The position numbers were made by a program, and so were the translations under genes. Of a DNA stretch of 64,000 nucleotides, positions 11,684-35,247 are shown one piece after another. How positions within the stretch are numbered: position 1 is the first letter of the stretch; each line of letters begins with the position of its first letter. Location: positions 62,001 through 126,000 of the forward strand of contig JAIXMQ010000021.1 of NCBI GenBank assembly GCA_025716855.1. Direction: 5' to 3'. The notes under the pieces are model-generated. The model was not told the origin of the DNA and did no database searches. It worked only from the letters and a program-made list of their open reading frames with translations. The stretch comes from Pilaira anomala (lineage: Eukaryota > Mucoromycota > Mucoromycetes > Mucorales > Mucoraceae).

Positions 11684-11700
11684 CACGTGAGAACCACGTG
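11684..11700 (-). promoter_or_regulatory. paired CACGTG boxes upstream of tRNA-Cys
   Basis: Two perfect CACGTG hexamers (11684-11689 and 11695-11700) are spaced 11 bp start to start. Their near edge is 59 nt from the tRNA-Cys 5' end at 11624. A TATATATA run lies between them and the gene. The same arrangement recurs at other tRNA genes in this window, so I infer an upstream element of the polymerase III promoter, probably bound by a bHLH factor. Confidence 0.6.
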
Positions 11701-12228
11701 ATTAGTTGTAGGAGGTTATGCTTGTAGGATGAAGAAGTGAAGTATCGATCAAAGCGAAATGAATAATTCGAACCGCAAGGTTCCATTTAATAGATTTATC
11801 TAGATCAAATTACATATTTCAACACATACTTCTTTTTCAATTACTACAAGCTTATTAAAAGCCAATGTAAAAAGTACAGAGTTTATTTACTTTTATTTAT
11901 TATTTTTAAATACTGCTTTTGGAACTCGAGAAAAGTATAGTGCTTACGGTGGGCTTTTCTAAATCCTAATTTGCATTAAAACTAAATTATTTTGCGCTCT
12001 TCCTAACGCAAGTTTGCGTTGCTTTATTTTGTTATGTAAATTAAATGGGGAGCTCGTTTAAATAGTCTTCAAATACTTTAACCAATTGCTGTAAAAAATT
12101 AAGAAGAACCTGATCGCATGTCTCGGATATTCTAGTTTTAAGATCCTCTGTGTTGCCAAATTGGCTACGTCTAACTTTTCCTTTTCATTGGCTTCTGGTC
12201 AAATTAACTATAAATGCTCTTTATTTAA
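11701..12228. other. intergenic with traces of decayed coding sequence
   Basis: No intact gene is visible. Read on the minus strand, 12045-12165 gives an open stretch with protein-like composition (ISETCDQVLLNFLQQLVKVF) ending in TAA at about 12045, broken upstream by stops and frame changes. It could belong to the same decayed unit as the next entry, but the strands disagree and I cannot say which is real. Confidence 0.3.
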
Positions 12229-12738
12229 GAATTTAGAGAAACAGTTTATATAATTAAGCAAATATTCAACAAGAGCATTTTCACTTCTCTTCCTGATCAT
12301 TATCCAGTCAGAGTTCTTCACCAAGTTTTCTACTGTGTAGTATGTTATGAGAATTATGAACGTGAAGATGAGAAGAAAACAATGCGGATACCCGTTGAGT
12401 TTGAAGGTTTGATTATTGTACTAGTTGGGACAATGTCTATGTAAGATATGGATTCGCGTTAATGAAACTTTCAGGTGCTCTAAGCCGGGTATATAATACT
12501 AAGGCCAAATGGGACATTAAATCCATCCTTCACAATGGGTATCATCAACGCAGGGAAACAAGACAGTAGCAGCGACAGACTCAAACAAATTCCAAGTCAG
12601 AGAAAGCCCAGACAAGAATATACATAGAAGGAAAACGAAGTCGGGGAAAAGAGTAGTAAAAAAAAAGGTAGTAAAATCACGGATGACTTTATCGGGATTT
12701 ATAAAAAGTATAACCAGGCACATCGTCACGTGAATAAG
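12229..12738 (+). pseudogene. degenerate coding remnant, at least two frameshifts
   Basis: Three successive plus-strand frames have protein-like composition and hand over to one another. 12229-12441 is open for 71 codons (SLPDHYPVRVLHQVFYCVV in the middle), then stops. From 12444 a frame shifted by two reads GFALMKLSGALSRVYNTKAK and stops near 12569. A third frame carries a stop and then KKKGSKITDDFIGIYKKYN up to about 12738. No canonical introns reconcile the frames. I do not recognise the family; a dead transposon-associated or lineage-specific gene is possible. Part of the last segment recurs inverted at 13250-13292. Confidence 0.35.
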
Positions 12739-12787
12739 GTTTTTTATAACTTTTGCATGAAATACACCATTACATCAATTTTTTTTT

Positions 12788-12872
12788 CACATGGCATACA
12801 GGCAGGTTTTTTTCTTATACGCCAGACAAACAGGGGGATTTTTTTTCACAAACAGGGGGTTTTTTTTTTCAT
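12788..12872 (+). repeat. ACAAACAGGGGG-T(n) tandem copies with a distant relative at 23281
   Basis: Two near-identical copies of ACAAACAGGGGG followed by 8-10 T lie at about 12825-12870. The preceding segment (CACATGGCATA ... ACGCCAGACAAAC) resembles 23282-23331 (CACACGACATA ... ACGCCATACAAAC) at roughly 70 percent by eye. It may be a degenerate dispersed repeat. Confidence 0.35.
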
Positions 12873-13138
12873 TATAAATAATCCTTTTTTTTTATTTTGT
12901 TCTTTTCTTTCACTTTCTTCTTTTTACATATATTCCTTCCTTACCGCTCCATTTTTAATCTCTTCTTTTTCCACACTCCTTATCCAAAGAAGAGATTGTT
13001 CCAAGAAAAAAAAAAGACCCGCATAACACATATTGTTATCAACAGTAAGTCTAATAATTTTATCAAAAAATAAATAATTCATTTTGTCTAATAAATCTCA
13101 AATAGAAAATAATCCTTTTTTCTTTTTTGTCCAAAGTG

Positions 13139-13225
13139 AAAAAAGAACAAGTATTGTACTTGTTTTTTCTTTAAAAAAAACAAGTATTATACTAGTCTTT
13201 TCTTAAGAAAAAACTGGTAAGTATT
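13139..13225. repeat. tandem palindromic hairpin units
   Basis: Two adjacent units, about 13139-13172 and 13172-13206, each form a near-perfect palindrome around ACAAGTATTGTACTTGT and ACAAGTATTATACTAGT, flanked by A-runs and TTTTTTCTT. A partial third unit follows to about 13225. This can form cruciform or hairpin structures. It sits between the inverted-repeat arms and about 170 bp before the start of the next gene. Confidence 0.5.
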
Positions 13226-13396
13226 TTGATAGCTAGTTGGATAAAATTGATCCGTGATTTTAATACCTCCTTTTTTACTACTCTTTTACCCAGCACCACA
13301 TGCTGGTAATAGCATTTCGCTATTGTGTGAGGCTGGTAAATTGTTACTATGATAGTAATGCAATAGTATCACTAATTTAGTATCTTCAAGGGAGTA

Positions 13397-15645
13397 ATGA
13401 ATTACAAACCAGTTTCGATTGATTGTATTTCAATCTTTAAGCAATCATTCAAATACTATGCAAGTAATTACAAGTCAAACGATGCACGTTTGAAGCTTGC
13501 CATGTCAAAATTACTCAGTAAATGCGACAAAGTATTGGACTCAAATCCAGTGCGAATAATCTTAAGCCAAAAGTATATTGTTGTAGGTTTCAAGTTTTCC
13601 ACATACTTTCTTTCTTCTAATTCCCTTTTACGGATAATAGCAATTGAAGCCTAGTGTAGTCGAAGAAATAATAAAGGACAAGTACAAAGGGCTTAAATCG
13701 GATCCATTACGATCACCGATACCAGCACCAACACTAACACTACCAAATTCGCTTTTATCATCCAAAAGAGGTTCCAATAAGAATTCAGTTCCATTTCAGG
13801 AAAAGAAGCCCAGAAGTTTGAGTGCCGCTTACCTTAATACCTTATCGTTAAATGAGAAATTGAGTTGTCTTACATGTTCCTAGTAAGAAAGTTTCCAATT
13901 TTGTGTATCTATTCAATCACTGTTATTCATTAACATTTCTTCCTGTTTTACCTAGTGGTAAGAATAATATCTTAGATCTTTCCTCTCCTGGTATACTCCC
14001 TTATAAACTTGCAGGTATCATGAAAGAAATCGCCTCCGAATTGACATTGGTGCTGCCATTAGTCTACAGCCCACAGGAACGAGAGATTTTAATGAAAATC
14101 TCCAGATCAACTTCATTAACTGATATTGAGATCATTGCCAAATCAATTTCTCTTATTCCACGTACTGGTTTACAGTCCTATTTGTATATTTCCTTATCAA
14201 AATTGTAAGTAACACTTTGTATTTTTAACGAAAGCCAACATACATACGAATTATTTTATTAGATTACTACTCTATCAAAGCAATCAGCTATTAGATACAA
14301 CTCACAAGGAAGGATGGTTTCAAGGACATGTTTACGCCGATACATTCTATGCCGTTTTTTTATTTGACCCATATTATATCACAAAAAGGTAAAAACTTAA
14401 GATATTGAGTTCGTATGATGGGCTGATAAAACATACTACTTTTTATTTTACCATAGAACGGAATATCTGGCCAGTACAATCAAATATTTGAGGAAGATAA
14501 AACAAATAGATGGAGATGAGAAGGATGTAAAGGCTAATCTTTTATTATTCAACAGTCAACTTGGGGACGTGTTCTCTTGCGAGGATAAGCCTACTAGCGC
14601 CACCGAAACCGAAGTTGAAGCTGATCTAAAGAAAGCAACTAACTTGAGAGAGAAGAGATTGAAATACATTCAATCATTGCTACCTTACCCATCTTGTATT
14701 CAACATATCTGTGACAATTGGTAAATTTATTTATTTATTGTTTGTTTGGTAATAAAATGTAAGAAAGACAAGAAAAGAAATGAGCCTCTTTGTGATCCTT
14801 TATTTTAATGGAGAGTAATTCATAGTAAAAATTAGTGTTCCTTTTATACCAAATTATCACTTTTAATAACAGACATCGTTCTTTCAATATAGTTCTACCG
14901 TATAAGGATTTGTCAAGATAAATTTATTGGTGAAACCTGAGTTACTGCATAAAGATATATATCACCTTAAATGCCTGTCACTGACCGCGGAAGGACTACT
15001 GTTAATAATAATTTATAGTGATCCGCTGTGATAGGTAGAGAAGGTAAACTATAAATTAAAGTAGTTATGATTCGAATAGTAAGGACTTGAATGTGTCACT
15101 TAATATACCAATGTTATAATATATCGTGTATATTATAACTATGAACTATATAAGATGTAATTGTATTATTCTGTTTAATTATAGGAGTAAATACGACAAT
15201 ATCGAAGTAATCAGCGCACAGTTTCACGGTCTTATTTTGACTGTCTATGGCTCAAGAATGACTAAGGATGGAATCATCATACATTATCAGAAAAGTACTG
15301 CTACCATCCCCTCCCAAGCCTCTAATATGTCACAACTGGCATATTTTCTCTTGAATGTAATGTCTTTGCAAGTAAGTATGACTATTAACTTCTCTGTGGC
15401 TATTGCCAATTGTCATTAATACATTAAAATAATAGAGAGCAATCATCATCAACCTCAAAAAGCTTATTGCTATCTATGAAGCTGGCTTCCAAGACTCGAT
15501 TGGATTTCTGGACTCCACCTTTAACAGCACCAATAACAACATAATTTTCCGTGATGATTTGCCTGAGCCATCATCAAATTCAAATAGCAATGAAGATGAT
15601 ACTGGTCTTGAAACTATTGGCGATAATTGGATCGAAATGGAATGA
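13397..15645 (+). CDS. unrecognised seven-exon protein with in-frame TGA near its C-terminus
   Basis: Exons 13397-13582, 13641-13882, 13956-14204, 14263-14388, 14457-14720, 15185-15371 and 15436-15645 join in phase, all GT-AG, to 487 residues. I do not recognise the family. The order is: a short basic N-terminus, a Ser/Pro/Thr-rich linker encoded by 13690-13850, a helical middle (ILPYKLAGIMKEIASELTLV), an aromatic block (GWFQGHVYADTFYAVFLFD), a charged helical stretch and an acidic Asn/Ser-rich end. Intron 5 (14721-15184, 464 nt) is far longer than any other here. After the TGA at 15643 the same frame stays open for 33 coding-like codons to TAA at 15745, suggesting either a recent nonsense change or readthrough. 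Placed in a repeat-bearing stretch, it may be a lineage-specific gene in decay. Confidence 0.6.
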
Positions 15646-15747
15646 GCAAGTAGGGTGCTTATGTTGATTGAGGAAAGAATTAAAGAGATTGGGCACGATG
15701 ATGGTGTATTAACCTGTGATGATTGGGAAAGCATTATTTTTCTTTAA

Positions 15748-16725
15748 CCTGCTTAAATTTACCCCTCCTCCCCCCCCCCCCTGTATGTGTATATGACTAT
15801 AACTCACCTCATTATACCAGTAACCATCAAATATCTATGTAATCGAAAAAAGGAAATTCAATAACTATTAAAAAATAGTCTCAAATAAATAAGCTGTATT
15901 TGCTATCCTTATCATATATACAACGGCCCGCAGAGCTGGATGTCCTAGGTGAGGCTTTTAGCAGACGATAAATTTCTCTTTAAATAAGTATGTAATATCA
16001 GGATGTACAGTGCTTCCTCACAACTTTTGAGAAAATTTAAGCAAGCAAATTTGGAAGTAAATCAAGTAATAATGAGCCCTTAATCAGATACTGTAATTCT
16101 GTAATACAAGACCTAATGTTTTTACTTTTAAGATTAAAAATGGTGCGCGTATCTATCCCCATAAATAATTTTAAATTGCTTTTGAAAAAAAAGAAATAAC
16201 CAAAAAGAAGAAACAACCAAAAAGATTAAAAAAAGGATGTAAAGAAGACAAACAAAAGCGATGACTTTCTCACACACCCAAAACTTAGAAAGTTTTTTAG
16301 TTTCTCGTTATTCTGATGAGCTCAAATTTTGTACCTCGAAAATTTAAGCGTTTGTTCGAAATACATCAAATACCATTTTCGCCTTTTCTCATTTTAATAA
16401 AAACCTCACACTTTAAACATTCGATTTTTTTAAAAGTTTTGAGCTATGTATACTTCAAATGCTTAATGGTATTGTGCACCTTAAACACTGCTGAGCAAGT
16501 GGACATAGAAAGTAAAAAAAATAAATGATTAAAGACTACTGAAAATCATTGATCGAAGACTACTGTAAAATATTAATTGTAGCCCACCGCAGGTGCTACC
16601 ATAATGTAACTAGTGGCAGTTTTAAAAGGACTCGTAATTTCTGAATATAGTAATGTATGCTTTAAACTGCAGAAATAAAAAGAAAAATTATTTTTGCTCT
16701 TTCTTCTTCAACATAAATAAACGAA
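15748..16725. other. intergenic, no gene recognised
   Basis: There is a C-run at 15769-15781, then AT-rich sequence. One 70-codon chance frame at 16316-16528 has no recognisable features. The last part forms the 5' flank of the HAD phosphatase gene. Confidence 0.5.
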
Positions 16726-17545
16726 ATGACGGTTATTACACACTGTATTTTTGACATGGTAAGTCTATAGTATAAAAGGAATATATGTAAACTTCTTTAA
16801 CAGTTTCTATCAGGATGGTCTTCTTTTAGACACAGAACGTGTATATACCGACGTGACTCAACAGATCTTGGATAAATATGCAAACGGTGTGAAGTTTACA
16901 TGGGATGTCAAAAGTAAACTAATGGGTAGAACTGGAGACGAAGTATGTGCTTTTTAAAAAAGTATTAAAAAGACACACACAATTATTAACTAATATGTTT
17001 ATTTAAAAAAAAAAAAGTCGGCTACTATGGTAGTCGAAACGTACAAGTTACCCATGACCGTGAAAGAATACTTGGACATTACTTCTGTAGTCCAAGAAGA
17101 TCTCTTTCCTCATGTCACAATCCTTCCCGGTGTAGAAAAGTTTGTCCGTCACTTAAAGAAACACGATATTCCTATGGCTGTTGCAACTTCTTCCACTCGC
17201 TCTAAATTTGAACTCAAGACTTCTTTAAATAAAGAATTCTTTGAGCTATTTGATACCATTATCTGTGGTGATGATGCCGAGATCAAGAACGGAAAACCTG
17301 CCCCTGATCTCTTTTTAGCTGCTCAAAAACGTCTTGGTAATCCTCCTGCTGAGAATTGTCTTGTGTTTGAAGATGCTGTGAACGGTGTTCAGGCAGGTTT
17401 GAATGCCAAGATGAATGTAGTATGGATTCCTGATGAAAATATCAAGGTCTTGACAGGGGATGAAGAACATGGCGCTACAATCGTCTTAAATTCTATGGCC
17501 GATTTGGTACCTGAAGATTTTGGTCTTCCTCCTTATGATAAATAA
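16726..17545 (+). CDS. HAD-family phosphatase, pseudouridine-5'-phosphatase-like (HDHD1/PUDP)
   Basis: Three exons (16726-16758, 16814-16942, 17018-17545) give 229 residues. The first intron splits the HAD nucleophile motif: FDM from exon 1 joins DGLLLDTE from exon 2, giving nucleophile Asp10 and acid/base Asp12. Motif II is the Thr/Ser of [11 protein letters not shown], the motif III Lys lies in [10 protein letters not shown], and motif IV is [12 protein letters not shown]. The wording through the cap domain ([19 protein letters not shown]) and the end ([17 protein letters not shown]) closely follows human HDHD1/PUDP, so pseudouridine-5'-phosphate dephosphorylation during RNA turnover is the best guess. 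Related fungal DOG/GPP sugar-phosphate phosphatases remain possible. Confidence 0.87.
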
Positions 17546-17584
17546 ATACAATTATATAAATAAATTTTCTTTTTATTAATGTTG

Positions 17585-19587
17585 TTACATAAATATATTA
17601 TCAAAATCTGATGGTTTAGTAGTATTAGTATTTCGAGAGGTGTTGGGTGCACCAAAAAGTGACGCTAAGTCATCATTTACAGAAGATTGTTTAAAGGCAC
17701 CACCATCATCTTGAACTGAGAGTGTGTCAAAAGCAGATAAATCAAATCCATATTTAAGAGCTGATTTTGATAATGGCAATTTTGCTTGGGCCCCATTATC
17801 ACTTCGAGGAGACATGATCGAACTACCAGAAAATGATGAAGGTGATCTTGTAAGCTCAGGTAAAGAAGACATAAAAAGCTTATGATTAGGCGTTGAAGCA
17901 TTAGAAGAATGACCCGATAATCCCTCTCTTTTTTGTTGTTCAATCTCTAATAACTGTTCTGCTTCCTCAGCTTTTGCTCGTGTTATGTCTAACTCGTGTT
18001 TAGCTTCGTTCACTTTCATCTCCAATTCTTGAACTGCTCGTTTTTCATCTTGATATTGATATAGTATTTCATCGGCCCGTTTTCGTTGGAAATTTATTTG
18101 TTGTTTAATTTCTACTAAATGATTTTCAAGTTCATATATTTGATTCATATCTTCTGTTGTTTGATTAGAAATAATAGGTGATTTTGGATAAAGTTGTGTT
18201 GGTTGAATATCTAGAATCGTTGAATCAGTGTCTTTTTTTTTTTTTTTTTTTTTTGTAAAAAAGGTCTTACATTTATCAATGCTTTCACCAGATTTTCGCA
18301 TCTTAATTAAATGCATTGCAACACTAAAGTCATGCAAATCTAACTTTCCCAAATGCCTACTATCAGCAATCTCCCAAATAACGCCAAGCTCCGAATCAGG
18401 TAAGTGAGAATGACTGAAGAAATAAACTGCTTCTTCAGCATCAATAAATCCTGAGTTATCAGTATCTAACTGAGAAAAGTAATTCTTGTATTGATCAATT
18501 TCTTGTGGTGCTAATATAACTTTCTGTTGAGGAATGTGATCCAATAAACCAGAAGAAGCAGTATGACTTGTTCTTGGTGATAAAAACGCACCACTTTGGC
18601 TCATTACTGGTGATAAAAGTGATGGGTTTGGGCTTCTGTTTTGAATTGAAGGTGATGTAACAGTTGTATTATGTCTACGAATAGAGTCGGCAAAACGACC
18701 TGTTGCCTCTGCATAAGTTTGAGAGGGCAACGTCTGTGGTAAAACTAATGATGGATTGCTCATGCATCTTGATATATAATGCATAGCAATAATAAATTCT
18801 GTCTTATTTAATGCATTTGAATTTCTTGTGTCTGCAAGCATCCAAATCGAACCTAATTTATCCATTGGAAGGTTTGATCGCATAAATATATTTCTTGCTT
18901 CCTCTCCTAATAATAATAATAATAAAAAAAAAAAAAAGAAAACCCAGTATATCAATATCCAAGCTATTTACATGTTTCTTTCTCTCTCTCCTTTACCGTA
19001 TAATAAGCCATCAGAAAGTTGGCATGACTGAAATATACTTATATACTTCTCTCGTTCTTCTTTAGTAATTGGAGCAATATCTACAATCGGTGGACGGATC
19101 ATGATGTCTTTGAATTGAGGTAAAGAAACTGTGTTTTATTTAGTTGCATTATTTATATCAATTTTTTTTTCACTTTTGCTTTTACCTTGTGTCGCAAGGA
19201 TGTTATCCTGTGCCTCGACCCCGTTTTGTGCACAGGCAATAAGTTTCAGGGCAACGTAAAATTCTGTTTCAGTAATATAGTTCTTCTCTCCTTCATCAAC
19301 CGTTTGCCAAATCTAATAAAACTATAACTTTAGAAACAGAAAAAGATCTCGGCCTCTTTTTTTATTACCTCTTCTAAAAAGGCAGATGGAATACCAGTCT
19401 TTGAAAAAAACGAAATGGCTTCATTCTTTCCCAAGAATGCTTTTTGTTCTACATCAGCAAGTTTGAAGTATTCTCTATAAGCGTATTTTTCTTGTGCGCT
19501 GAGATAAATTTCTATTTGTACATTTATGAGATATTTCAAGAACGATACTAGTTAATATTGTCTCTTTTTTTTACCTGGGCTAGTCAT
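17585..19587 (-). CDS. EH-domain endocytic adaptor (Ede1/Eps15-like)
   Basis: Six exons (19575-19587, 19369-19511, 19186-19312, 18997-19128, 18271-18906, 17585-18231) give 565 residues. Three EH domains are visible. The first is from about residue 8 (AQEKYAYREYFKLADVEQK), the second from about 115 (REKYISIFQSC ... DKLGSIWMLADT), and the third from about 255 (YKNYFSQLDTDNSGFIDAEE ... LGVIWEIADSRHLGKLD), which keeps a good EF-hand loop. A Gln/Glu-rich coiled coil follows, then a Ser/Asn-rich tail. EH domains bind Asn-Pro-Phe peptides and act at clathrin-mediated endocytic sites. The protein is much shorter than yeast Ede1 and lacks its UBA end. The penultimate intron is only 39 nt, a multiple of three, and stop-free. 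Confidence 0.82.
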
Positions 19588-20226
19588 TAGAAAAAAAGTG
19601 TAAAAAATAAATAAACAATCGTATGTTAGGAAAAAGAAGACGGCTGTACTAATTTTATTTCTATTAATAATGAGGTTGTAGCACGTGCCCTTATAATATA
19701 AGTATAAATGTGCAAAGTGTTATAAAAAGCTGTCGCTATTAATAATGCTTCTGGAGCCTGCATGCACGATTAGTTGGATCAAGGTTACAAATGTTTATCT
19801 AGTACGAATCAGAAGTTGCCTTAAGATCCTTTCTTCAATGCCAGTTTTTTATTTTGTTTGAATATAAGTACATAATTTTTTTTATTTATTTATTTATTTT
19901 TTTTTGACAGCTTGTTATAAGTAAATTCAATTAAAGAGGATTTTTGTAAAATATCGTCTTTTTAATTGTTCAAGACCTTAGCAGCTCATTAGTATTATAG
20001 CATTTTATTTACAAAGTATGTAATTGAATTACCAATGATGTAATCATTGATGGTTATACAGAATATTCGATAATTGGTATCCTTTTTCAGCAACTGTGTA
20101 TCAATTGAAAACATGTAAATTTAAGCAATAGAAAAAAGATTATTATTAACTTTGAAGGAACGTAAAAAAAAAAAAAAAAACTCAGGAAAGAAAGAGTTTT
20201 AAACGAAAATGAACCAAACTAGTATT
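19588..20226. other. intergenic with dispersed repeat
   Basis: AT-rich sequence between the EH gene and the intronless gene. It contains the repeat described at 19965-20060. A palindromic GCACGTGC occurs at 19681-19688. No gene is seen. Confidence 0.5.
19965..20060 (+). repeat. dispersed repeat, copy 1 (related copy at 63920-64000)
   Basis: This segment shares AAGAnCTnAGCAGCTnATT, then an AT-rich block, then GATGTAATCATTnATGGT, with 63921-64000, at roughly three-quarters identity by eye and in the same order. Both copies are intergenic. The second copy runs to the window edge, so the element's length is unknown. Confidence 0.55.
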
Positions 20227-22421: not shown

Positions 22422-22449
22422 CACGTGCATATCATGTGAATGTCACGTG
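22422..22449 (+). promoter_or_regulatory. triple E-box array upstream of truncated tRNA-Ile
   Basis: CACGTG at 22422-22427, CATGTG at 22433-22438 and CACGTG at 22444-22449, each 11 bp apart. The array ends 60 nt before a 15-nt exact copy of the tRNA-Ile 5' end at 22510. Spacing and distance match the arrays at intact tRNA genes. Confidence 0.6.
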
Positions 22450-22509
22450 TGTTTTTTTGAGAATTTTGCAGTTCTGTGATAATATTTTTTTTGGTTGACT
22501 GAACAAGAA

Positions 22510-22524
22510 GCTCGCTTAGCTCAG
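22510..22524 (+). pseudogene. truncated tRNA-Ile 5' fragment
   Basis: GCTCGCTTAGCTCAG is identical to the first 15 nt of the intact tRNA-Ile at 23073 (acceptor 5' strand, bases 8-9 and start of the D arm) and then diverges completely. It keeps the upstream E-box array at the normal distance, so it looks like a tRNA gene that lost its body rather than a chance match. Confidence 0.6.
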
Positions 22525-22987
22525 GTTAAGAAAGTATGGTTTTTATTAATTTGTCAATTTTAATTATTATATGGAGGGGCTTTTATCTATAGATATATTG
22601 CCTATATAACAAGGACCGGTATATAAGGTGGAAGTTACATGCTAAAGAAGGGAAAACTTTGGAATATACAATTAAACAAATATAAATACAATTGATTGGC
22701 TAAGACTTCTTTGGCTGTTTGCTTGAAGAACTGTTGCTTATTTAATTCAGGGGTTTAGAATACCGCAAAGGAATTAAATTTGAAAATTGTTGTTCTGCAT
22801 CATTACCACCGCTGTAACACAACGGTAAACCACCTTTTTGTTGTTGGGTGAAGCGAGCTTCGAACGAATTGTACTGACATAATTTGAGTCTTGAGCGAAA
22901 CATTGAGGATACCTCGTCCGACAGGACGTGCCAAATAACGGCTGGTACAACTAGGACACACAAGTTATAATTATGATTATCAGATGC
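22525..22987. other. intergenic between tRNA fragment and tRNA cluster
   Basis: No supported gene. A minus-strand frame at 22742-22963 (73 codons) has mixed composition but no start context, splice sites or recognisable motif; it may be a remnant of something older. Confidence 0.35.
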
Positions 22988-23067
22988 TCTTGGTGGGATT
23001 CGAACCCACGGACCCCGAGAGGCCCTTCAAGAAACGCAGACGTTATAACCACTACGACAAGCAGACA
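22988..23067 (-). pseudogene. tRNA-like remnant with intact T arm
   Basis: Read on the minus strand, the sequence has a perfect T arm (GTGGG-TTCGAAT-CCCAC), a D-arm-like GTAGTGGTTATAAC and a possible long variable arm (GGGCC TCTC GGGGTCC). No 5-bp anticodon stem with a 7-nt loop can be formed, and the acceptor strands (TGCTTGT against CAAGAGCA) pair poorly. It is best read as a decayed tRNA gene, head to head with tRNA-Ile and only a few bases away. A structure-based tRNA search would settle it. Confidence 0.5.
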
Positions 23068-23072
23068 TCGAT

Positions 23073-23146
23073 GCTCGCTTAGCTCAGTTGGTTAGAGCGT
23101 GGTGCTAATAACGCCAAGGTCAACAGTTCGACCCTGTTAGTGAGCA
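23073..23146 (+). tRNA. tRNA-Ile (AAT)
   Basis: A 74-nt cloverleaf: acceptor GCTCGCT/AGTGAGC, TA at 8-9, D arm GCTC-AGTTGGTTA-GAGC, anticodon stem TGGTG/CGCCA around loop CTAATAA (anticodon AAT, read as inosine-AU), T arm AACAG-TTCGACC-CTGTT, discriminator A. There is no intron. A T-run for termination follows at 23158-23164. Unlike the other tRNA genes here it has no E-box array 60 bp upstream, where the tRNA-like remnant sits. Confidence 0.96.
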
Positions 23147-23358
23147 ATCATTCTTAACTTTTTTCAAGTTAAAATTATTTTTTTAACTTTCGAGATTATA
23201 AATGTGGTAAAGGAAGTAGTAAGGAAAAAGAATTCGAGTATAAAAACACTCGCTTGATTGCTATTGACATTTTATTTTTTTCACACGACATATGTACGGA
23301 AAGGTTTTATTTCTCACGCCATACAAACCAGTTTTTTTTTTTAGCTTTATCATAAATC

Positions 23359-24474: not shown

Positions 24475-24837
24475 ATGACCCGTTCTTTAGAAATAGAAAA
24501 AAAGGGTCGTCTTATAAACGTTACTCACCAAATACCTTATGAAATAAATTCAGATGACACTGGTGAATGGGAATTCACTCCTCGAAGAGGCCATGGTGCC
24601 ATGTATGGAGGTATTCATTCCTTACAAAATACCTGGGAGCTTGTTCATATTGGTTGGACTGGTCTTATTAGTAAAAATAATGTGGTGATAGAAGAGGATT
24701 TACCACAGTCGGATAAAGATGAACTTTATAGTATCTTGAAAGAAAAACATTCTTGTTTGCCTTTATTCGTAGATAGTGAAACTGTATCTGGTCATTATGA
24801 CGGATATTGTAAAACAAGTAAAGTTATATTATGCGTG

Positions 24838-24872
<35 letters not shown>

Positions 24873-25418
24873 AGTGTATAAAAAGTCAAAAGAGTATTAA
24901 TTAAATATTAGTGTTATGGCCTTTACTTCATTATATCATTTGGAATGATGCTACGGATGGTAGAGTAGAAAGTACACAATGGGAGGCATATAAAGCAGTA
25001 AATCAGCAATATGCTGATTTTGTATCTGAATTATATCAAGATGGTGATATTAGTAAAGTATTTTTTTAAAAATAATTTGATTTCACATGGCAACAAATTA
25101 ACAATCATTTATAGTTTGGGTACATGATTATCACTTGCTGTTAGTTCCATCCATGATACGAGCAAAACATCCTGAAGCTAGAATTGGATTATTTATACAT
25201 TCACCTTTTCCTACTTCTGAAATATTTAGATGTTTACCTAGTAAAGTTCATCTCTCTATCGAAAAAAAGCAAATCAATTCATTCAAAATTAACAACTGTA
25301 TATTATTATTTAGAAAGACAAGAAATCTTAATTGGCATGATTGGAGCAAACCTTGTAGGATTTCAGGTACAAAAATTAAACATTATATTTTTTTTAGGAG
25401 TCAGACAACAACTTACGA

Positions 25419-25452
<34 letters not shown>

Positions 25453-27204
25453 GACATATGCTTATGCTAGACATTTTATTTCAACATGTACAAGAGTACT
25501 TGGATACGAATCAACACCAGATGGATTAAGATGTTTAGACGGATACTTTTGTCATGTCGGTACATTTCCAATCGGTATTGATCCAGAAGAAATAGAAGCT
25601 CGATGTAACGATCCAACCGTACAATCGAAATCACAAGCACTTAAAGAATTATATGCAGGAAAGAAAATTGTCGTAGGAAGAGATAAAATTGATCTAGTTA
25701 AGGGTGTACTTCAAAAATTAGCCGCTTTCGAGAAATTCCTTACCGATTTTCCAGAATGGAGAAATAATGTCGTATTGATACAGTTGACGGATGGCGCTAC
25801 CAACGAATCAGCTAAATTAGAACATAAAGTATCAGAAACCGTCGCTCATATTAATAATACCTTTGGATCACTAGAGTTTACTCCTGTACATCATTTTCAT
25901 CATCAAATACAACTGGATGAGCATTATGCTCTTTTATCAACTGCCGATTGTGCTGTAATTACTGCAAATAGAGATGGTATGAATACAACAAGTTTAGAAT
26001 ATATCGTATGTCAAGAGGGTGAGAATAAACATGGCCCATTAATTCTTTCGGAACTTACTGGTACTGCTGGTTCATTAAGTTCTTCATTAATGGTAAACCC
26101 TTGGGATTATGCCGGTGTAGCTAAAGCAATTAATGATGCACTTGTTATGTCCGAAGAAGAAAAGATATCAAGACATATGGTAATTTAAATCTATTTACTT
26201 ATTTTCATTCAAGGTAGTAATATCTTTTTTTTTTTGTAGCAAATGTTGGCACATGTTAAAACTCATACTGCCTCCTTTTGGGCAAAATCCTTTGTAAAAG
26301 TATTAGAGAAATCAATTGCTGCTTCAGAACAATCAAGTTATACTCCTCTCTTGGAAATCGAACCACTTTTAAACAATTATAGACAAACCAAAAAACGACT
26401 TTTATGCTTCGATTACGACGTAAATATTTCAAAAAAAAAATACTTTCTTTTTAACTAAATTAATTTTTTTTTTTGTGTTGGTAGGGTACATTATCAGAAG
26501 TTCGAAGATTTCCAGGCTCAAGTGCGCCTAAATCATCCATGATCTCAGCACTTCAGCTACTTTGTGATGATCCAAATAATGCAGTCTGGGTAGTCTCCGG
26601 CAGAGATGAAGCAACACTTGATAAATGGCTTGGTCACGTACGAGGTATTGGGCTCAGTGCAGAACACGGTAGCTTTGTAAAATACCCTGGAAGTTCAAAA
26701 TGGATCAATTTACTAGAACATTTTGATATGGGTTGGAAAAATGATGTGGTCGAGATATTCAGTTATTATGCTGAAAGAACGACAGGAAGTTTTATTGAAC
26801 ATAAACGTTGCTCAGTGACATGGCATTATTCTCTTGCTGACCCAGAGTATGGTGCATTTCAATCAAAAGAATGTCAAAATCACTTGGAACATGCCATCTT
26901 ATCAAAGCTACCTGTTGAAGTTTTAGTGGGTAAAAAGAAATTGGAAGTGCGGCCAACCACAACCAATAAGGGGGAAATTATTAAACGTTTATTAGCTGCG
27001 AATGAAGATATTGATTTTATCATGTGTTGTGGAGATGATAGAACGGATGAAGCCATGTTTAAAGCATTGAAAAATGTCGTAGATCCTTCATTACCTGTAT
27101 TTTCAATTGTCGTTGGTGCTAAAGATAAAAAGACTTTGGCCACTTGGAGAATTGCAAGTGTTCAAGATGTATTAGGTGCTCTTACTGCATTAACAAACAA
27201 TTAA
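24475..27204 (+). CDS. TPS2: trehalose-6-phosphate synthase/phosphatase (TPS2 type)
   Basis: Seven exons (24475-24817, 24912-25052, 25115-25240, 25314-25366, 25454-26179, 26240-26419, 26485-27204) give 762 residues. The N-terminal GT20 glycosyltransferase region is marked by INVTHQIPYE, WVHDYHLLLVP, GLFIHSPFPTSEIFRCLP and GRDKIDLVKGV. The C-terminal HAD phosphatase starts with LLCFDYDGTLSE (nucleophile Asp about 521) and ends with motif IV CGDDRTDEAMF, so the phosphatase should be active. It would convert trehalose-6-phosphate to trehalose for stress and spore storage. The synthase part resembles the regulatory, often inactive, domain of fungal Tps2. Intron 1 contains a long (GT)n run. The stop lies 188 bp before the chitin synthase start. 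Confidence 0.92.
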
Positions 27205-27392
27205 ATAAATAAAAAAACATCATTTTTTCCGAAGTGAATATATTATATGTATATAATATACATATATTTTAATCAGAACCCATCTAAAGAATGCTTTTGT
27301 CAACTGTAAAATAAAATAAAAATTTTGACGTATTGTATTTTATTACCTTTTCTCTCTCTCTTTTTAGTTCCTGATTTACAGGCTTAAAAATC

Positions 27393-30300
27393 ATGAGTAT
27401 ATCGGAAAATAAACAGGAAAAGGCCGAAGAGGATGGGTCACAGAATAATAACGATCGAGAAAGAAAATCAAAAAAAAATACGAATTCTAGTAGCACTAAA
27501 TTATCAAATAATGCGCTTAAAGTTGACACTTCAAAAACGAAAAGATCCACAAACAATCCTGATCCTACTCAAAGTCCTTCAATTAATGTAATACAGACCC
27601 AATATCGACATAGATCTAGTATCGGCGGTGGAAACACAACCGAATTATCTACAAATACTCGACCTAAAAGAACTCAGAGATCTGAAGATTTAAAAAGAGC
27701 TCAATACCTTACAACAAATCCTACTCTAGATGATGTAGAAAAAGAAGATACAACAAAAGTCAAAAATAACACAAAACCCCCACCTTCGTGCTGGATTACT
27801 ACGAGTTGGATATTAACATGGTGGGCTCCTCCATTTTTGTTACGTACTTTCGGTAAAATAAATGAATAAATTCATACGATTTTTTTTTTTTTATCTAATA
27901 CAATTTTTATATCTAGGTATAAAAGATAAAAACATACAACAAGCATGGCGTGAAAAAGTAGCATTAGTTCAAGTGATTATATTCTTGTGTGCATTAGTCG
28001 GGTTTTTAACGTTTGGATTTAACACTACAATATGTGGTAGACAACCGAACCGAATTCGTCCTACAGGTGTTGAATACAACCATATTGTTATTTCTGGAAG
28101 AGCATTCGACTTGAAATCATTTAGACACCCTACTCCTGTCGCAGATATGCCAGGTAGTGGTGATCTTCAAGAACTAGGTGTAGGTGGACGTGATTTATCT
28201 TTCTTGTTCCAAACCGTGAACTATAACTGTAAAGGAATTCTAAAACCTATTCAAGAAGACGATGCAAATGGAAACGTAGCAAATTATTTTCCTTGTGTTT
28301 CATTAGATAGATATGATCCTAACGTTGACCCTACTGATAATCCAGAAAGAGTTGGGTGTCATATCAGTACAAAGTCTCGTATTGCTCTTCGTCGATTAGA
28401 TGTTGTAGGTGATATATATTATAATTGGACTGATATTCAAAAGCCTGGTACTAGTTTAGTAGCATTTAACGGGTAAATAACTTTTTTATATATAAAAAAA
28501 AAATCTTAATTTATTTAACCCATCTTAATTTCTTTTTTAGAAATGTGCTTGATTTATCTCGTTTACGTTATTTAACTCCAAATATTCCTTTACCTATTCA
28601 AGTAGCTCAAATTGTTGGTCCTGGAAGTGCATTTATTGGAAGAGACGCTACCTACTGGCTCAGTACAACTGCAGATCGTTTACAAATCGGTAAATGTCTT
28701 ACTGATATCTTGAAAGTGGGCGTGGTTGATACCAGATCTACAGGCTGTATTATTTCAGATATTGTCTTATGGGTCTCCTTGGCTGTCATTCTCGGTGTTG
28801 TTTTGATTCGCTTCTTTTTAGCACTTGTATTTGGTTGGTTTGTTTCTGGAAAATTAGGAAGTATCCGAGAAGAATCGGATGCAGACCGAAAGAAGCGACA
28901 AGATCAAATACTTGAATGGGAAATGAATAATGAGGAAGATATGCATTATCCTAGAACCCAAAGTATTGCATCCATAACTGTACCTACATCTATTATTCAT
29001 GATACAAATGCTACTACTGCTAATAACGCAAACCCATTAACAAATGAAGAAATCATATCTGCTTCTCAATCATTACCTGCCTCTCAATCATTACCTACCT
29101 CTCAATCTCCTCAAGGTTTAAAAAAACGTTTCTTTCCGTCCACCTCTCGTTTCACTCATCCTTCCTCTCCTAAATCACAAAATGGTTCACGTACTTTTGA
29201 TCAACAAATGACATATTCTCCAAATATACCTTACACATTGAGCTCACAATTTTTCCAGAATTTTGAAGACACTCGTGGAACTCAAAGTATTTCAACAGAT
29301 AATATCCAAGCAAAAAAACAATACAACTTTAACTTTGATCTTATTCATACATTCATGGTCGTGACCTGTTACTCTGAAGGCGAGGAAGGGTTAAGAACAA
29401 CACTTGATTCACTTGCTAATACAGATTATCCATCTTCCCACAAATTACTTTTGGTTATCTGCGATGGTATCATTACAGGGTCTGGAAATGGTAGCTCTAC
29501 GCCAGATATTGTATTATCTATGATGAAGAATGATATTGTACCTCGAGATCAAGTTCAGGCTTCCTCTTATGTTGCTATTGCTGACGGTATGAAAAGACAT
29601 AATATGGCCAAGGTCTATGCTGGTCACTATCGATATAATACAGACTCTATTACTTCTGAAATTATTCCAGAGGATCAACAACAAGAAGTTCCAATGATTG
29701 TTATTGTAAAATGTGGTACAGAAGCGGAAGCTATGGATAAGAAACCTGGTAACAGAGGTAAAAGAGATAGTCAGGTTATTTTAATGAATACAATGCAAAA
29801 AGTGTATTATGGTGAAAGAATGTGCGATTTGGAATATCAGTTCTGTAAAGCTATTGTTAAATTAACTGGATATCATCCCTCACGTTTTGAAACTTGCTTA
29901 ATGGTAATGTTTTTTTTTTGTTCAATTCCTTTTTTTTTTTTTTCTAATATATTGCGTATATAGGTTGATGCAGATACAAAAGTATATCCAGATTCTTTAG
30001 CACGTATGATTGCTTGTATGTCAAGAGATCCATATGTTATGGGTTTATGTGGAGAAACTAAAATTGCAAATAAAGCCGATAGTTGGGTAACCGCTATTCA
30101 AGGTAAGTTCGAAACAAAATTTTAATTTCGATTTATTAACTCACTGTAAAAAAAAAAAAAATTAGTATTTGAATATTACATTTCTCATCACATGAGTAAA
30201 GCCTTTGAATCAATTTTTGGTGGCGTTACTTGTCTTCCCGGTTGTTTCTGTATGTATCGTATTATCGCACCAAAAGGAGACCGTTACGTTCCTATATTTT

Positions 30301-31136
30301 GCTCGTCCGATATTGTTGAAATGTATTGTGAGAATGTAGTGGATACTTTACATAAAAAGAATTTATTACTTTTAGGAGAAGATAGATATTTAACAACACT
30401 GATGCTACGAACATTTCCAAAGAGAAAAATGATATTCGTACCGCAGGCAGTAAGTTGTTATAACTCATTATTTAATTGAATTTATTCTAATATACATGAG
30501 ATCTCTTTTTTTTTTTTCTAGGTTTGTAAGACTGTTGTTCCTGATACATTCGAAGTTCTTTTATCTCAAAGAAGAAGATGGATCAATTCAACAGTACATA
30601 ATTTATTAGAACTTGTTTTAATTCGTGATTTATGTGGTACTTTTTGTTTCTCTATGCAATTTGTTGTTTTTATGGAATTGGTCGGTACTGTTGTTCTTCC
30701 TGCAGCTATTTCATTTACTATTTACCTCATCATCATCTCGTTTTTTGTGACACCAATTCCAATTATTCCATTATTACTCTTGGCAGCTATTTTGGGTCTG
30801 CCTGCAATTTTAATTGCATTAACAACACGTAAAATGGTATATATTGGCTGGATGTGCGTGTATTTATTCTCGCTACCTATTTGGAATTTTGTTTTACCTG
30901 CATATGCTTACTGGCATTTTGATGATTTCTCTTGGGGTCAAACTCGTATGGTTGAAGGCGCTGCTGCGGAAACAAAAGAAGATCATGGACGTCGGGAAGG
31001 TGAGTTTGATAGCAGCGGAATTGTCATGCGTAGATTTGAAGAATGGGCACGTCAAGAAAGAAAAATAATGGCAGAAGAAAGAATGGCATCTTCAACAGTG
31101 TCACGAAATTACCCTAAAGTTTATTACGGTCACTAG
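27393..31136 (+). CDS. chitin synthase, class IV (Chs3)-like
   Basis: Six exons (27393-27852, 27917-28472, 28541-29903, 29964-30102, 30166-30449, 30522-31136) give 1138 residues. A Ser/Lys/Thr-rich cytosolic N-terminus is followed by two membrane segments ([11 protein letters not shown] region and [16 protein letters not shown]), an extracytosolic domain with N-glycosylation sites and a further membrane helix near [18 protein letters not shown]. The GT2 catalytic core shows [42 protein letters not shown] (about 910) and the class-defining QRRRW (about 950), then a C-terminal membrane cluster. It makes chitin (in this group often deacetylated to chitosan) at the plasma membrane. No myosin domain is present, so it is not class V/VII. 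Placement directly after the trehalose enzyme may be chance. Confidence 0.92.
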
Positions 31137-31466
31137 TAGAATTATTTGATATATATTGACATTAAATTAGATTCACAAAAAAAGTTCATTTCCAACCTAA
31201 GATTTTTTCTTTATTATTATAAATGCATAATAAAAAAAAATCATTTTTTTTTCTGTAAATATGATTAATAAATTCAATAATATATGCATTACTCTCTATT
31301 GCTCTTAATTAGTTTAAAATAAAAGACCTTAGTAATAAAGATTGATACTATTCTTAAATTAAAAAATACAAGAATCAACACCAAAACATAGTACTTAATG
31401 CATTCAATTAACAAAGGTAATGCGAAACAAGTTGTACTGGCATAGCTCATCCTAAGCTGCAAAAAA
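31137..31466. other. intergenic, no gene
   Basis: The 3' flank of the chitin synthase with T/A runs and AATAAA-like signals, followed by AT-rich sequence without coding potential. Confidence 0.5.
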
Positions 31467-31494
31467 AACGTGAAACTCACGTGAATATCATGTG
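31467..31494 (+). promoter_or_regulatory. E-box array upstream of tRNA-Ser
   Basis: AACGTG (31467-31472), CACGTG (31478-31483) and CATGTG (31489-31494) lie at exact 11-bp pitch, ending 57 nt before the tRNA-Ser 5' end. A TATAAATA sequence lies between them and the gene (about 31516). It has the same layout as at tRNA-Cys and tRNA-Glu. Confidence 0.6.
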
Positions 31495-31551
31495 ACTTTT
31501 TTTGTAATTTTACGTATAAATATTAAATTAAAGTTCAAGAAATCATCAAAA

Positions 31552-31633
31552 GTCGCTTTGTCCGAGTGGTTAAGGAGTATGACTAGAAATCATATACGCT
31601 CTGCGTGCGCAGGTTCAAATCCTGCAGGCGACG
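31552..31633 (+). tRNA. tRNA-Ser (AGA)
   Basis: An 82-nt type II tRNA: acceptor GTCGCTT/AGGCGAC, D arm with AGTGGTTAAGG, anticodon stem TATGA/TCATA around loop CTAGAAA (anticodon AGA), a long variable arm (TACGCTCTGCGT), T arm GCAGG-TTCAAAT-CCTGC, discriminator G as usual for serine. A T-run follows at once (31638-31643). Confidence 0.96.
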
Positions 31634-32003
31634 ACATCTTTTTTACTCCTTTTTGAAAGGACTGTAGTGCGTGTAACGAGTGTCTCTTTTTTTTTCGCAA
31701 TTAAGTGAATGTTTTTTATTAAAAGATCGAAAACAGCATAATAAAATAAGTACATCAAAGCTAAGAACCGGTTCCTGTCACCAGTTACAAAGACTTTATA
31801 AATTAAAAAGAAATTTATGTTGGTAGTTTTTGATATAGATACGGGAATAAGTTTTTGAGATTTAAGGGAATTTAAGTATGAAGTTAGTAACGATCACAAT
31901 AAATGATAGATTTATTACGATAAACGCAATTTTTAAATTTTAAATTGGTATTTTAATTTATTATGTACATGTACTCTATATGTTTCTCAATGGTGTATAT
32001 GAA
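31634..32003. other. intergenic, no gene
   Basis: AT-rich sequence between tRNA-Ser and the 3' end of the F-box gene. Nothing recognisable apart from T-runs. Confidence 0.5.
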
Positions 32004-33217
32004 TTAGTTCAATCTCCATTTAACAATTGATTCATTTAATTCACAATATTCTGGGCCAACGATATCATCTAAATAAATCAATTAATATTCAATATCTGAA
32101 ATCAATCATTAAAATCAATATATAAAAAAAAAATTTACCTGAAGTATAGATTTTTCCAGCCAATCCATAAGTATTAACAAGATAATCCCACAAAAATGGA
32201 GTGACAATAGAGAAGCCACCTTTAAAGTTTCCACGAGGTCTGGCACGATGGTTCAATTTACCTGGACGCTCTGGGTCTTCCAAAGCATCGTTAGCAATTG
32301 GTCCTTCCCCAATCTTACCGTCACATAAACGTAAAAACCATGTTAACAACCATAATCTTTCAACAAAATAATATTTTCCTTGTGAGACAGATTTTCTATC
32401 TGCTTGTTCGGCATAAAGTGAACGTTCTCTAATACATTGTTGTCTTCTCTCCATTGCCTCTCTACCCTTAACACTATCATGTGTAAGAGTCTTTAATAAA
32501 GTATCGACATGATAAGATTCGCTGGAATCTCCTCTAGATTCACCGCACTAAATAAATAATTTTTTTTTTAAAAAAAAAATCACATTAATACAAACATAAA
32601 CAAACTGAAAGCATTATACAATTACTTTACCAATCTCTTACAGTCGAAGCAAAACATTTGCAAAACATTCATACGAATCAAGATACCATGACCCTCTACA
32701 GCTTTGTGATAAGAATAAGCACAATCCTTACAACCTATAAAATTTTAAATCTCGGTCAATTATCACACTCATACAAGAAAAAAAAAAAAAAGAATCTTTA
32801 GGCAAAGATATACTTACGATTTCTGACATTTCCTTTCCAAACATAGAGGCATAATCCGGTATCCTTACATACAGAGCCACAAGTGCTACAATTCAAATTC
32901 TTTGGTAACCAATTCAAAACTTGTTGATATTTAACTGCATAAGGTTCCAAAATTTTGGGAGTAACGTGTCCAATATGAGGACACATTTTTGAATGTCCAG
33001 GATCTGTTGTTTTACGAGCGTACATATCCTTCCAGTCTTCATCAGGAAGCTTATAGTTAATTCCATAGTCATTGTAAAGTCTCTCTTTCCAAACAGCATC
33101 ACTATGAGCAATAAGTGCAAACTTGTGGCAAACAAACGAGAAAGTTTTGAGATCTTCTTGAGGAAGGAGACCTGCAATAGTAATCAATAATTCGTTGTTG
33201 ATATCTGTAAGACGCAT
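32004..33217 (-). CDS. F-box protein with UBP-type zinc finger and DUSP domain
   Basis: Four exons (32818-33217, 32631-32734, 32139-32547, 32004-32068) join in phase to 325 residues. An F-box lies at residues 3-45 (LLITIAGLLPQEDLKTFSFVCHKF ending in VWKERLYNDYG). A UBP-type zinc finger runs from about 78 (CPHIGHV) through CSTCGSVCKDTGLCLYVW and CKDCAYSYHKAVEGH to FCFDCKRL. A DUSP domain near the C-terminus is recognisable from YYFVERLWLLTWFLRL ... GEGPIAND ... GGFSIVTPFLWDYLVNTYG. ZnF-UBP and DUSP are normally parts of ubiquitin-specific proteases such as USP20/33; no protease domain is present here. It is probably an SCF substrate adaptor that reads free ubiquitin ends or deubiquitinase partners. 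Function is inferred from domains only. Confidence 0.8.
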
Positions 33218-33696
33218 AGTATTATAAACGGTACTGGAAAGAAAAAAAGAGAGACGAGAAAAAAAAAAAAAAAAAAAAAAGAAAAAAAGAAAAAAAAAAT
33301 TCGATTTTTATTTGTGTTTTCTTGAACTACTTTACTTGTAGATACCATTTATAGTCCGCTTGTCATTATTTCTACACTTTATAACATACAAACACTGTAA
33401 TTGAGATATATGAAGCTAGAATATGCTTCATAGAACCTTATTAGTATCGCTTCGTTGTGATACTGTAACATTGTATGCATTATAATGCACAAATTCAGGT
33501 CATATAAGCATAAGCCACTTAGAACCAATGAGAATCTCACAGGACTGCTAATAAGTATATTTATAATCGAAGTTAATTCCAAAGCACATTAACAATTGAA
33601 AAGTAGAACAGCGATAACTTGCAAGATTTATTTTTTTTTTTTATAGTAATTTATATTTGAAGACGGACATTTTATTTCCTCGTTTATCTTCCGTAT
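33218..33696. other. intergenic, A-rich 5' flank
   Basis: Long A-tracts (33258-33299) directly upstream of the F-box gene, then AT-rich DNA. A short chance frame at 33379-33582 is not supported. Confidence 0.5.
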
Positions 33697-34670
33697 TCAT
33701 CCATAGAATTTCTTCCCTCTTCTTCTAAATCGTGTAGATGAAAGTGATTGATAACTGTTTCTTTTAGAAGCCTTGTTTTGAAGCTCTTCTTGGAGATCAT
33801 CTCTCTCTTTTTTAGCGGCCTCTAGTTCAACCTTTGTTGCTTCAAGCATAACCTTGGCAGTTTCCAACTCGCTTTTAATTAGAATATCTTTAATAGCCTC
33901 ACGGATTTGGCGAATAGTAACGTCTGTGATTTCCTTGTCGATGGTACCGAAGTTAATATCAGAACGAGAATTTTCGTTCAATTTTTTAGTAGCTTGTCCT
34001 ATTTTATAGGCTATTAGAAGTTGTTCGAAATGACATTCTAATTTTTCCTTAAACAGTTTAGAGTCGGTTAGCTTTTTTCTGTAGTTATCTTCTTCTTTTT
34101 TCTCTTTTTCTAGAGCTGATAATTTGCTCCTGGTATTCCATAACTCGGTCTTTTCTAAACTAAGGATTTCCTTCAAATCCTGAACCTCTTGTCGCAATTT
34201 GACGTTTGCTTGAACAGTTTGGTTATGAGACTCATCATCATTGGTTAGCCGAATGGCTTGAATACCCTTCTCAAATTGCTCAACAATTTTATACGCTGTC
34301 TTATCAAGGTGTTGTAGTATTTCCTTACTAATTTGGTCTTGTTTGCTTTTCACTTGCTCAAGAGCATTTTTATGTTTAACATATTCCTCTGAGGCGGTAG
34401 CTGATTCGACATTTAGATTATCCAATAAACTCGGGTTATTAGCAATTAATTCCTCATCATAATCACTCAATTCAGTAAGTTCTGTATTCGAGAAGTATAT
34501 ATATTAGTATCCGCAAAAAAAAAAATAAAAAAACTTGTTCAAAAGATACCTGTAACGGAAACCAAATCCTTAGATTCTATCAAACTAAGAGTTAATTTTT
34601 CATTTAAAATACCTAAGTTGTGTTTATTACCATCAGTATTGGATTGATTCGTTTCTTTTGAAGTCGACAT
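33697..34670 (-). CDS. coiled-coil protein, unknown function
   Basis: Two exons (34550-34670 and 33697-34481; intron 68 nt, GT-AG) give 301 residues. The N-terminal 60 residues are polar and acidic. Nearly all the rest is Glu/Lys-rich helix with heptads (about 70-265, for example VKLRQEVQDLKEILSLEKTE and ELETAKVMLEATKVELEAAK), and the protein ends in a basic tail (RFRRRGKKFYG). There are no membrane segments. I do not recognise the family; low-complexity coiled coils give spurious similarity to myosins and kinetochore proteins, so no function is given. Confidence 0.7.
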
Positions 34671-35230
34671 AATTATGAGTTTTTCAAAAATAAGGAAGCA
34701 AGAAAAAAAAAAAAAGAAAAAAGGATAATATAATATATATTTATTGAGATATTTTTAACTTGAAACAATCTCTCTCGACGCCATTTGAGTAGATCATCAA
34801 TAACGGTTCCCAAATATTTACTAAACTAATTTTATTACGTAAAATAAGTGTCAAATGCTTATTTTAATAGCTGTATTGTCTGTAGTAGTAGGATTGGGTT
34901 TCAGACAGTTCTCCTTTATCAAACACCAAAGGCTCGAGGATTACTTTATATAACTCTTTCATACATAAGCGTATTAGATGTGTGTTATATATTATTCTAA
35001 TCCTTCATAAATCAATAATAAAATAACGATTAACTGTTGAGGAGACGATAAATTATTAGTGTATCTTCTGCCAATTTGGAATAATTCATGTCCATTTGAT
35101 AAAAGCAATAGGCAGATTAATTTCGATTATTTAACGTAATTGTAAAATAACTGTACACAGTGATACTGCTATTCGCCCGAAATAACTAAACAATAATATA
35201 TATTTTCAAACGCAATTCAATGAATAAAAA
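34671..35230. other. intergenic, no gene
   Basis: The 5' flank of the coiled-coil gene followed by AT-rich sequence up to the tRNA-Glu promoter. No coding potential is seen. Confidence 0.5.
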
Positions 35231-35247
35231 CACGTGAATATCACGTG
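35231..35247 (+). promoter_or_regulatory. paired CACGTG boxes upstream of tRNA-Glu
   Basis: CACGTG at 35231-35236 and 35242-35247, 11 bp apart, ending 59 nt before the tRNA-Glu 5' end. TATATGTAA at about 35273 lies between. The AATAT spacer is the same as one at tRNA-Ser. Confidence 0.6.

Follow-up and report, generated by a model that had tools for sequence, protein, structure and literature searches.

Genes for transfer RNA (tRNA) are usually described as having internal promoters, to which AT-rich or TATA-like upstream sequence adds a modest contribution. In a stretch of 64,000 nucleotides from the fungus Pilaira anomala (assembly GCA_025716855.1, contig JAIXMQ010000021.1, positions 62,001 to 126,000; hereafter the window), four tRNA loci are preceded by tandem arrays of E-boxes, that is, two or three CACGTG hexamers or close variants repeated at a pitch of 11 bp. 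An earlier note on the window took these arrays to mark a class of RNA polymerase III (Pol III) promoter. Are they part of the machinery by which this fungus transcribes its tRNA genes, do they belong to mobile elements that settle beside such genes, or do they mark the genes for some other role? To judge from the sequence of the window and of the genome (34.25 Mb in 225 contigs), the array is probably a conserved promoter element upstream of this fungus's tRNA genes, where dimers of a basic helix-loop-helix (bHLH) protein would sit beside TFIIIB and aid tRNA transcription.

A pattern search found all four arrays, at the 11-bp pitch, where the earlier note had placed them, and the gaps between array and tRNA, when recomputed, came out as it had claimed (Table 1). 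The window contains 13 CACGTG words, against a mean of 3.96 and a maximum of 9 in shuffled sequence, and 8 matches to the 11-bp pair pattern, both strands counted, against a mean of 0.10 and a maximum of 2. Genome-wide, MAYGTGN5MAYGTG occurs 199 times on the forward and 201 times on the reverse strand, compared with 29 and 14 for the reversed pattern, and CACGTGN{0,30}CACGTG occurs 171 times, compared with 19. Arrays were listed from the start of the contig series (C1 to C99 for the CACGTG pairs), and among the CACGTG pairs listed 47 of 50 have a gap of 5 nt, which is the 11-bp pitch, with one each at gaps of 4, 25 and 26. Two CACGTG words at one preferred spacing are a feature of tandem bHLH sites.

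A set of 83 tRNA genes was assembled independently of the motif, 61 through RF00005 and 22 through a B-box word. The RF00005 search was a sample (63 of 1882 candidates were scored). The B-box word gave 56 matches, of which 10 were already in the set; the other 46 were fetched and yielded 23 tRNAs, then 22 under a shorter intron limit that dropped L143, which had been called at 227 nt because of its long intron (L and C numbers are our own designations for loci and contigs). L134, which looks like a tRNA-Gly missed by ARAGORN, was left out of the counts. An 11-bp pair lies at -120 to -55 in 52 of the 83 genes, consisting of two exact CACGTG words in 45 of them; 10 genes have a single CACGTG, 21 have neither pair nor single word, and 7 have three boxes in step. 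At least one CACGTG is thus found upstream of 62 genes. After dinucleotide-preserving shuffling of the same set, no pair appeared in this interval in 200 shuffles. Since the pattern counts are also far above their controls, a chance origin of the arrays is rejected, and the improbability asserted by the earlier note is borne out by the window shuffles and the genome-wide reversed-pattern control.

The position of the array is as regular as its pitch. Where two CACGTG words occur upstream of these tRNA genes, 46 of 55 spacings are 11, and in the RF00005 set the 3'-most pair starts between -105 and -69 in all 42 pair-bearing genes, with a median of 57.5 nt from the 3' edge of the array to the tRNA. 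At least one pair is present in 16 of 17 anticodon families, or in 26 of 29 when tRNAs reached through arrays are included; the three families left are Gly(GCC), with no pair in 4 genes, Asp, which has one CACGTG with CACATG 11 bp before it, and the tRNA-Ile of the window, whose array has been displaced. The array therefore stands at a set distance from tRNAs of many isotypes, as does an upstream element of type 2 Pol III genes. Neither of the two outcomes that the earlier note had named as fatal to its proposal was found: most sampled tRNA genes do not lack the array, and it is not equally frequent at random intergenic positions, with 2 pair-pattern matches and 11 CACGTG words in 80.7 kb of sequence flanking 30 tRNA loci.

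The anatomy of the array was examined in an anchored set of 83 of 106 genes, which includes genes selected through their arrays. A T stands before the proximal CACGTG in 96% of them and an A after it in 75%. The distal box has the expected letters at 83-93% per position, and the gene-proximal box is the better site of the two. The median gap to the tRNA is 58 nt, and TATA-like words 3' of the array peak at -40 to -31. There is also a modest extra signal just 5' of the array, where CCAAT or ATTGG is about threefold enriched: the 68 array-bearing genes have 19 such words between -120 and -81, whereas the locus flanks predict about 5.7.

Outside the boxes little is conserved. In 157 pairs of isodecoder copies the identity is 0.31 over the 48 nt 5' of the array and 0.36 over the 30 nt 3' of it, and among representatives of 27 families it is 0.31 and 0.37. 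The distal box, which was not used as the anchor, is identical at 0.75 between isodecoder copies and at 0.87 between families. Flanks at about the identity given by base composition, beside boxes that persist, argue for selection. Recent duplication of tRNA flanks is rejected as the cause for most genes because flank identity is near chance; the matches of 80-93% between isodecoder loci include unmasked tRNA bodies. Counts of shared repeats do not by themselves separate the classes of gene, since BLAST gave matches for 40 of the 52 genes with a pair and 4 of the 10 with a single box, and most of these matches run across the array.

The 47 exact 11-bp pairs among those listed form 45 clusters: 24 have an intact tRNA at 40-110 bp, 4 have a truncated tRNA head and 17 have neither. 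In 20 array loci without a tRNA, Rfam gave only two weak matches below the cut-off, both in L002, a chance-type pair. An array might instead serve a neighbouring gene transcribed by RNA polymerase II (Pol II), its proximity to a tRNA being secondary. E-boxes are certainly not confined to tRNA genes, as TCACGTGA occurs 534 times genome-wide against 188 for the reversed control, which means that many lie elsewhere. The arrays themselves hold a fixed position relative to the tRNA, and of the 25 exact arrays listed on contigs longer than 100 kb, 24 stand upstream of a tRNA (21 intact, 3 truncated heads) and 1 has neither, which leaves a Pol II role very improbable.

The array does not extend to Pol III genes in general. 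CACGTG was absent from the 190 nt upstream of four U6-type loci, three 5S-type loci, one RNase P locus and one signal recognition particle (SRP) RNA locus. Three of the U6 matches were over the cut-off and one, U6-like, was below it; two of the three 5S matches were strong, and the SRP RNA passed the metazoan model. This absence indicates that the array is a mark of tRNA genes and not of Pol III genes at large, and a general upstream element of the proximal or upstream sequence element (PSE/USE) kind is rejected on the same ground. Of the promoter class put forward in the earlier note, the upstream mark at tRNA genes holds, and the class itself has to be drawn more narrowly. Two U6 genes and the SRP gene (L112, L113, L120) have in common an upstream word, CCCACAACTTGTCCAT, before TATATAAGAAG, and the U6-like copy L115 has a degenerate form of CCCACAACTTGTCCAT, which is possibly a PSE-like element separate from the tRNA array. 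A divergent U6 gene, L114 (C35:300760-300877, minus strand), has two CACATG words upstream and lacks the CCCACAACTTGTCCAT word.

Some arrays are carried by mobile elements. The tRNA-Lys gene L041 and the tRNA-Glu gene L164 are preceded by sequences that are 98.5% identical over 197 bp, array included, ending no more than 4 nt from the gene. They represent a family, T2, that ends in GGTTGAYA or a close form, and related upstream flanks occur at four more tRNA genes (L064, L065, L145, L151). A second family, T1, ends at TATGACA and is found before a tRNA-Ser (L130) and a tRNA-His head (L014). By hand count on alignments, the elements end 9, 10 and 11 nt before tRNA-Lys, -Glu and -Ser and 10 nt before the tRNA-His head, and 47 nt (T2) or 53 nt (T1) separate the 3' end of the array from the end of the element, a spacing close to the native one for a transcription start about 10 nt 5' of the tRNA. 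An open frame upstream of L041 has weak similarity to integrase (Pfam below cut-off; PFV integrase, 6.1e-5; Ty3 Gag-Pol, 0.0011); this copy supplies all the protein evidence for T2, and T1 has none. T1 or T2 sequence with the array near the element end is seen at L041, L164, L130, L014, L091, L099, L110, L177 and L178. A further pair of loci, L028 and L069, is 85% identical over 137 bp up to the array. Another repeat, which has no tRNA, carries a pair of E-box arrays separated by about 450 bp (L100 on C45, L105 on C47, L109 on C65), and a decayed tRNA-like family (L098, L110, L137, L171), one member of which is cut by an insertion, stands alone or 3' of element-borne arrays on small contigs.

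The ends of T1 and T2 lie near the Pol III start site, and insertion at that site is a habit of Ty3 according to the part of PMC5911963 available to us. Like Ty3, these elements stop about 10 nt 5' of tRNAs; unlike the known Ty3, TRE and NLTR elements, they carry the host array at nearly its native spacing. The arrays could on this evidence be relics of Ty3-like long terminal repeats (LTRs) that integrated at tRNA starts, the E-boxes having served the element as its own promoter or in targeting and having then persisted or been adopted later. The two families with arrays near their ends fit such a history, as do the 7 of 52 pair-bearing genes with T1/T2-like flanks (L041, L164, L064, L065, L145, L151, L130) and the frequent occurrence of Ty3 elements at tRNA genes in Rhizopus, as stated in the available part of PMC2699053. 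Most array-bearing genes, on the other hand, share no flank with T1 or T2, flank identity between families being 0.31-0.37, and T1 and T2 may equally have picked up the array from tRNA genes. Some arrays may yet descend from very old, decayed LTRs; an origin of the arrays in Ty3-like relics we consider unlikely.

Insertions also bear on the tRNA genes that lack an array. At 10 of the 21 CACGTG-less genes (L022, L024, L025, L038, L042, L057, L060, L061, L127, L135) a dispersed repeat takes the array's place: 40-197 bp upstream of each gene recur, at 74-100% identity, before a tRNA of a different isotype that is also array-less. The only match of L029 is one of 40 bp, with a gene that bears an array, and no upstream repeat match was found for the other ten of the 21. 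A CCGG-rich repeat (TCCGGACTAGTTCGG and like words) occurs near tRNA genes or arrays at L042, L061, L148 and L086, and it stands in the array's place at the first two.

At C1:914810 (L111, C1:914600-920050) an array and the start of a tRNA-Lys are followed by a long interspersed nuclear element (LINE) on the opposite strand, with Pfam matches to Exo_endo_phos (2.3e-6) and RVT_1 (8.4e-18). An intact, array-less tRNA-Lys begins with the same letters 5045 bp further on, beyond the LINE, and the 17-bp direct repeat starts at the tRNA 5' end. An APE-type endonuclease, a reverse transcriptase and a target-site duplication are thus all present, and the element is a non-LTR retrotransposon in the 5' end of a tRNA. 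Non-LTR elements that target tRNA 5' ends are known (TRE and NLTR; PMC5911963, in the part available); unlike those, the LINE described here sits after about nt 15, inside the tRNA, with the 5' end duplicated and an intact gene retained. An insertion at this point duplicates the tRNA 5' end and so leaves an intact gene that is cut off from its array. LINEs of this family or shorter elements inserted after about nt 15 are seen at L111, L005, L014, L082, L097, L169 and at 22510-23087 of the window. Three further arrays end in truncated heads, those of His and Leu exact over 13 nt and one with two mismatches. The Leu head has an intact partner about 5 kb away (L169); for the other three of four such loci (L167, L168, L170) the second half predicted at about 5 kb was not found in the stretch fetched.

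The tRNA-Ile of the window has the same layout as the tRNA-Lys case, with a 15-nt repeat and a 548-bp insert (Table 1). The truncated tRNA-Ile reported in the earlier note does have an array, and its 15 nt prove to be a duplication made by insertion, the real gene starting beyond the insert. A tRNA-like stretch at 22985-23071 on the minus strand, antisense to tRNA-Ile, contains a B-box word (22996-23006), and for this reason the insert may be a short interspersed nuclear element (SINE) lying antisense to the gene.

Table 1. Arrays, tRNA genes and inserted sequence at the four sites of the window
Feature	Position	Strand	Evidence or remark
E-box pair CACGTG-N5-CACGTG of tRNA-Cys	11684..11700	-	Motif match; 59 nt 5' of tRNA
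tRNA-Cys (GCA)	11552..11624	-	Rfam 55.9 bits; ARAGORN 11551-11625
E-box triple CACGTG, CATGTG, CACGTG, 11-bp pitch, originally 5' of tRNA-Ile	22422..22449	+	60 nt before duplicated tRNA head
15-nt copy of tRNA-Ile 5' end ("truncated tRNA-Ile"), read as target-site duplication	22510..22524	+	Identical 15 nt at 22510 and 23073
Inserted element of 548 bp separating the tRNA-Ile 5'-end copies	22525..23072	-	Repeat layout; element class putative
Intact tRNA-Ile (AAT), itself array-less	23073..23147	+	ARAGORN 23072-23147; upstream listing
E-box triple AACGTG, CACGTG, CATGTG, 11-bp pitch, of tRNA-Ser	31467..31494	+	57 nt 5' of tRNA
tRNA-Ser (AGA)	31552..31633	+	ARAGORN and Rfam
E-box pair CACGTG-N5-CACGTG of tRNA-Glu	35231..35247	+	Motif match; 59 nt 5' of tRNA
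tRNA-Glu (TTC)	35307..35378	+	ARAGORN and Rfam

Several observations weigh against a conserved promoter element. No 11-bp pair was found at 31 of the 83 sampled tRNA genes, including all four genes for tRNA-Gly(GCC), and 11 of the 21 CACGTG-less genes have no clear repeat to account for the loss. Up to 9 of the 52 pair-bearing genes have an upstream flank in common with a repeat or with another isotype. On contigs shorter than 66 kb, 16 of the 20 listed clusters have neither tRNA nor head (3 have an intact tRNA and 1 a head); at least 13 of these 16 have flanks in common with another array locus, and so look like copies of dispersed repeats.

Which protein might bind the arrays? The genome has 41 helix-loop-helix matches, of which 20 sequences were fetched; one matches Cbf1 at 1.8e-18 and another, MITF/USF-like, matches MITF at 6e-14. 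The Cbf1 word is RTCACRTG, and the T before and A after the proximal CACGTG resemble the yeast Cbf1/CDEI site. In yeast these sites are found at centromeres and Pol II promoters. A tRNA role of Cbf1 was not found in our literature search, in which the one "cbf1" match was Cbf12. Under a promoter role, the boxes would be occupied by adjacent dimers, two or at times three, of a bHLH protein that binds CACGTG. The Cbf1-like protein or a MITF/USF-type relative is the likeliest candidate, and the dimers would share one helical face and abut the upstream edge of TFIIIB. Bound dimers would keep the upstream stretch open and help TFIIIB to load or reload, and most tRNA genes would in this way come under one sequence-specific factor.

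The same proteins could act otherwise. Cbf1 has chromatin and centromere roles, and a position beside TFIIIB would suit a barrier as well as an activator, so that the array might mark tRNA genes in order to set a boundary, provide a nucleosome-free anchor, gather the genes into clusters or shield the genes next to them. The narrow range of distances from the array to the TATA-like stretch and the start of the tRNA suits the geometry of a promoter better, and we give such a role outside transcription little credence.

If the array is a promoter element, a classic transcription-factor word would serve as a widespread upstream element of tRNA genes. In the TATA-assisted tRNA promoters of fission yeast and plants, and in those with the yeast composite motif, TFIIIB is assisted by sequence upstream of a type 2 Pol III gene (PMC7279448, in the part available). 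A TATA-like stretch is likewise present at the P. anomala genes; the tandem CACGTG site at an 11-bp pitch is an addition, and lies farther upstream, at about -58 to -75. In mammals the CACGTG-binding bHLH pair Myc/Max acts at Pol III loci, with Max at tRNA genes, and the available part of PMC4482074 places the E-boxes in the 5S spacer and near 7SL genes and describes no fixed tandem array 5' of tRNAs. The tandem E-boxes of CLOCK:BMAL1 likewise consist of two CACGTG-type boxes at a set spacing, and side-by-side bHLH dimers are a feature of that system. There the gap is 6 or 7 nt and the promoters are those of Pol II (PMC12424780, in the part available); with a gap of 5 nt at tRNA genes, the array is rejected as an instance of that type. 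No such array was reported in the literature searched, which covered links of CACGTG, E-boxes, bHLH proteins or Cbf1 to tRNA genes and the tRNA genes of Mucor and Mucoromycota, most subscription papers being outside its scope.

A broader reading joins the promoter element to the insertions, and we advance it only tentatively. The tRNA transcription of this lineage might rely on a tandem bHLH platform 5' of TFIIIB; Ty3-like elements landing at the tRNA start site would have evolved ends with this platform, spaced as in the host, and each insertion would rebuild the promoter that it displaces. LINEs would instead copy the 5' end of the tRNA without taking the platform along. The arrays borne by elements offer a natural experiment on what keeps mobile elements from doing harm at tRNA genes. 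Were the array a promoter element as proposed, a single sequence-specific factor could adjust a large part of a fungal lineage's tRNA supply, and that supply would perhaps be tied to nutrient signals.

Elsewhere in the window, positions 38938-41589 of the minus strand hold an 883-aa open frame that contains PKVEE-type repeats, and the lone CACGTG words at 38973 and 40281 are inside it. The P-type ATPase encoded in the window is 97% identical to an unnamed protein, 87% to one of Mucor flavus and 65-81% to proteins of other genera, which we take to be Mucorales; this one protein fits the assignment of the sequence to the Mucoromycota in the earlier note.

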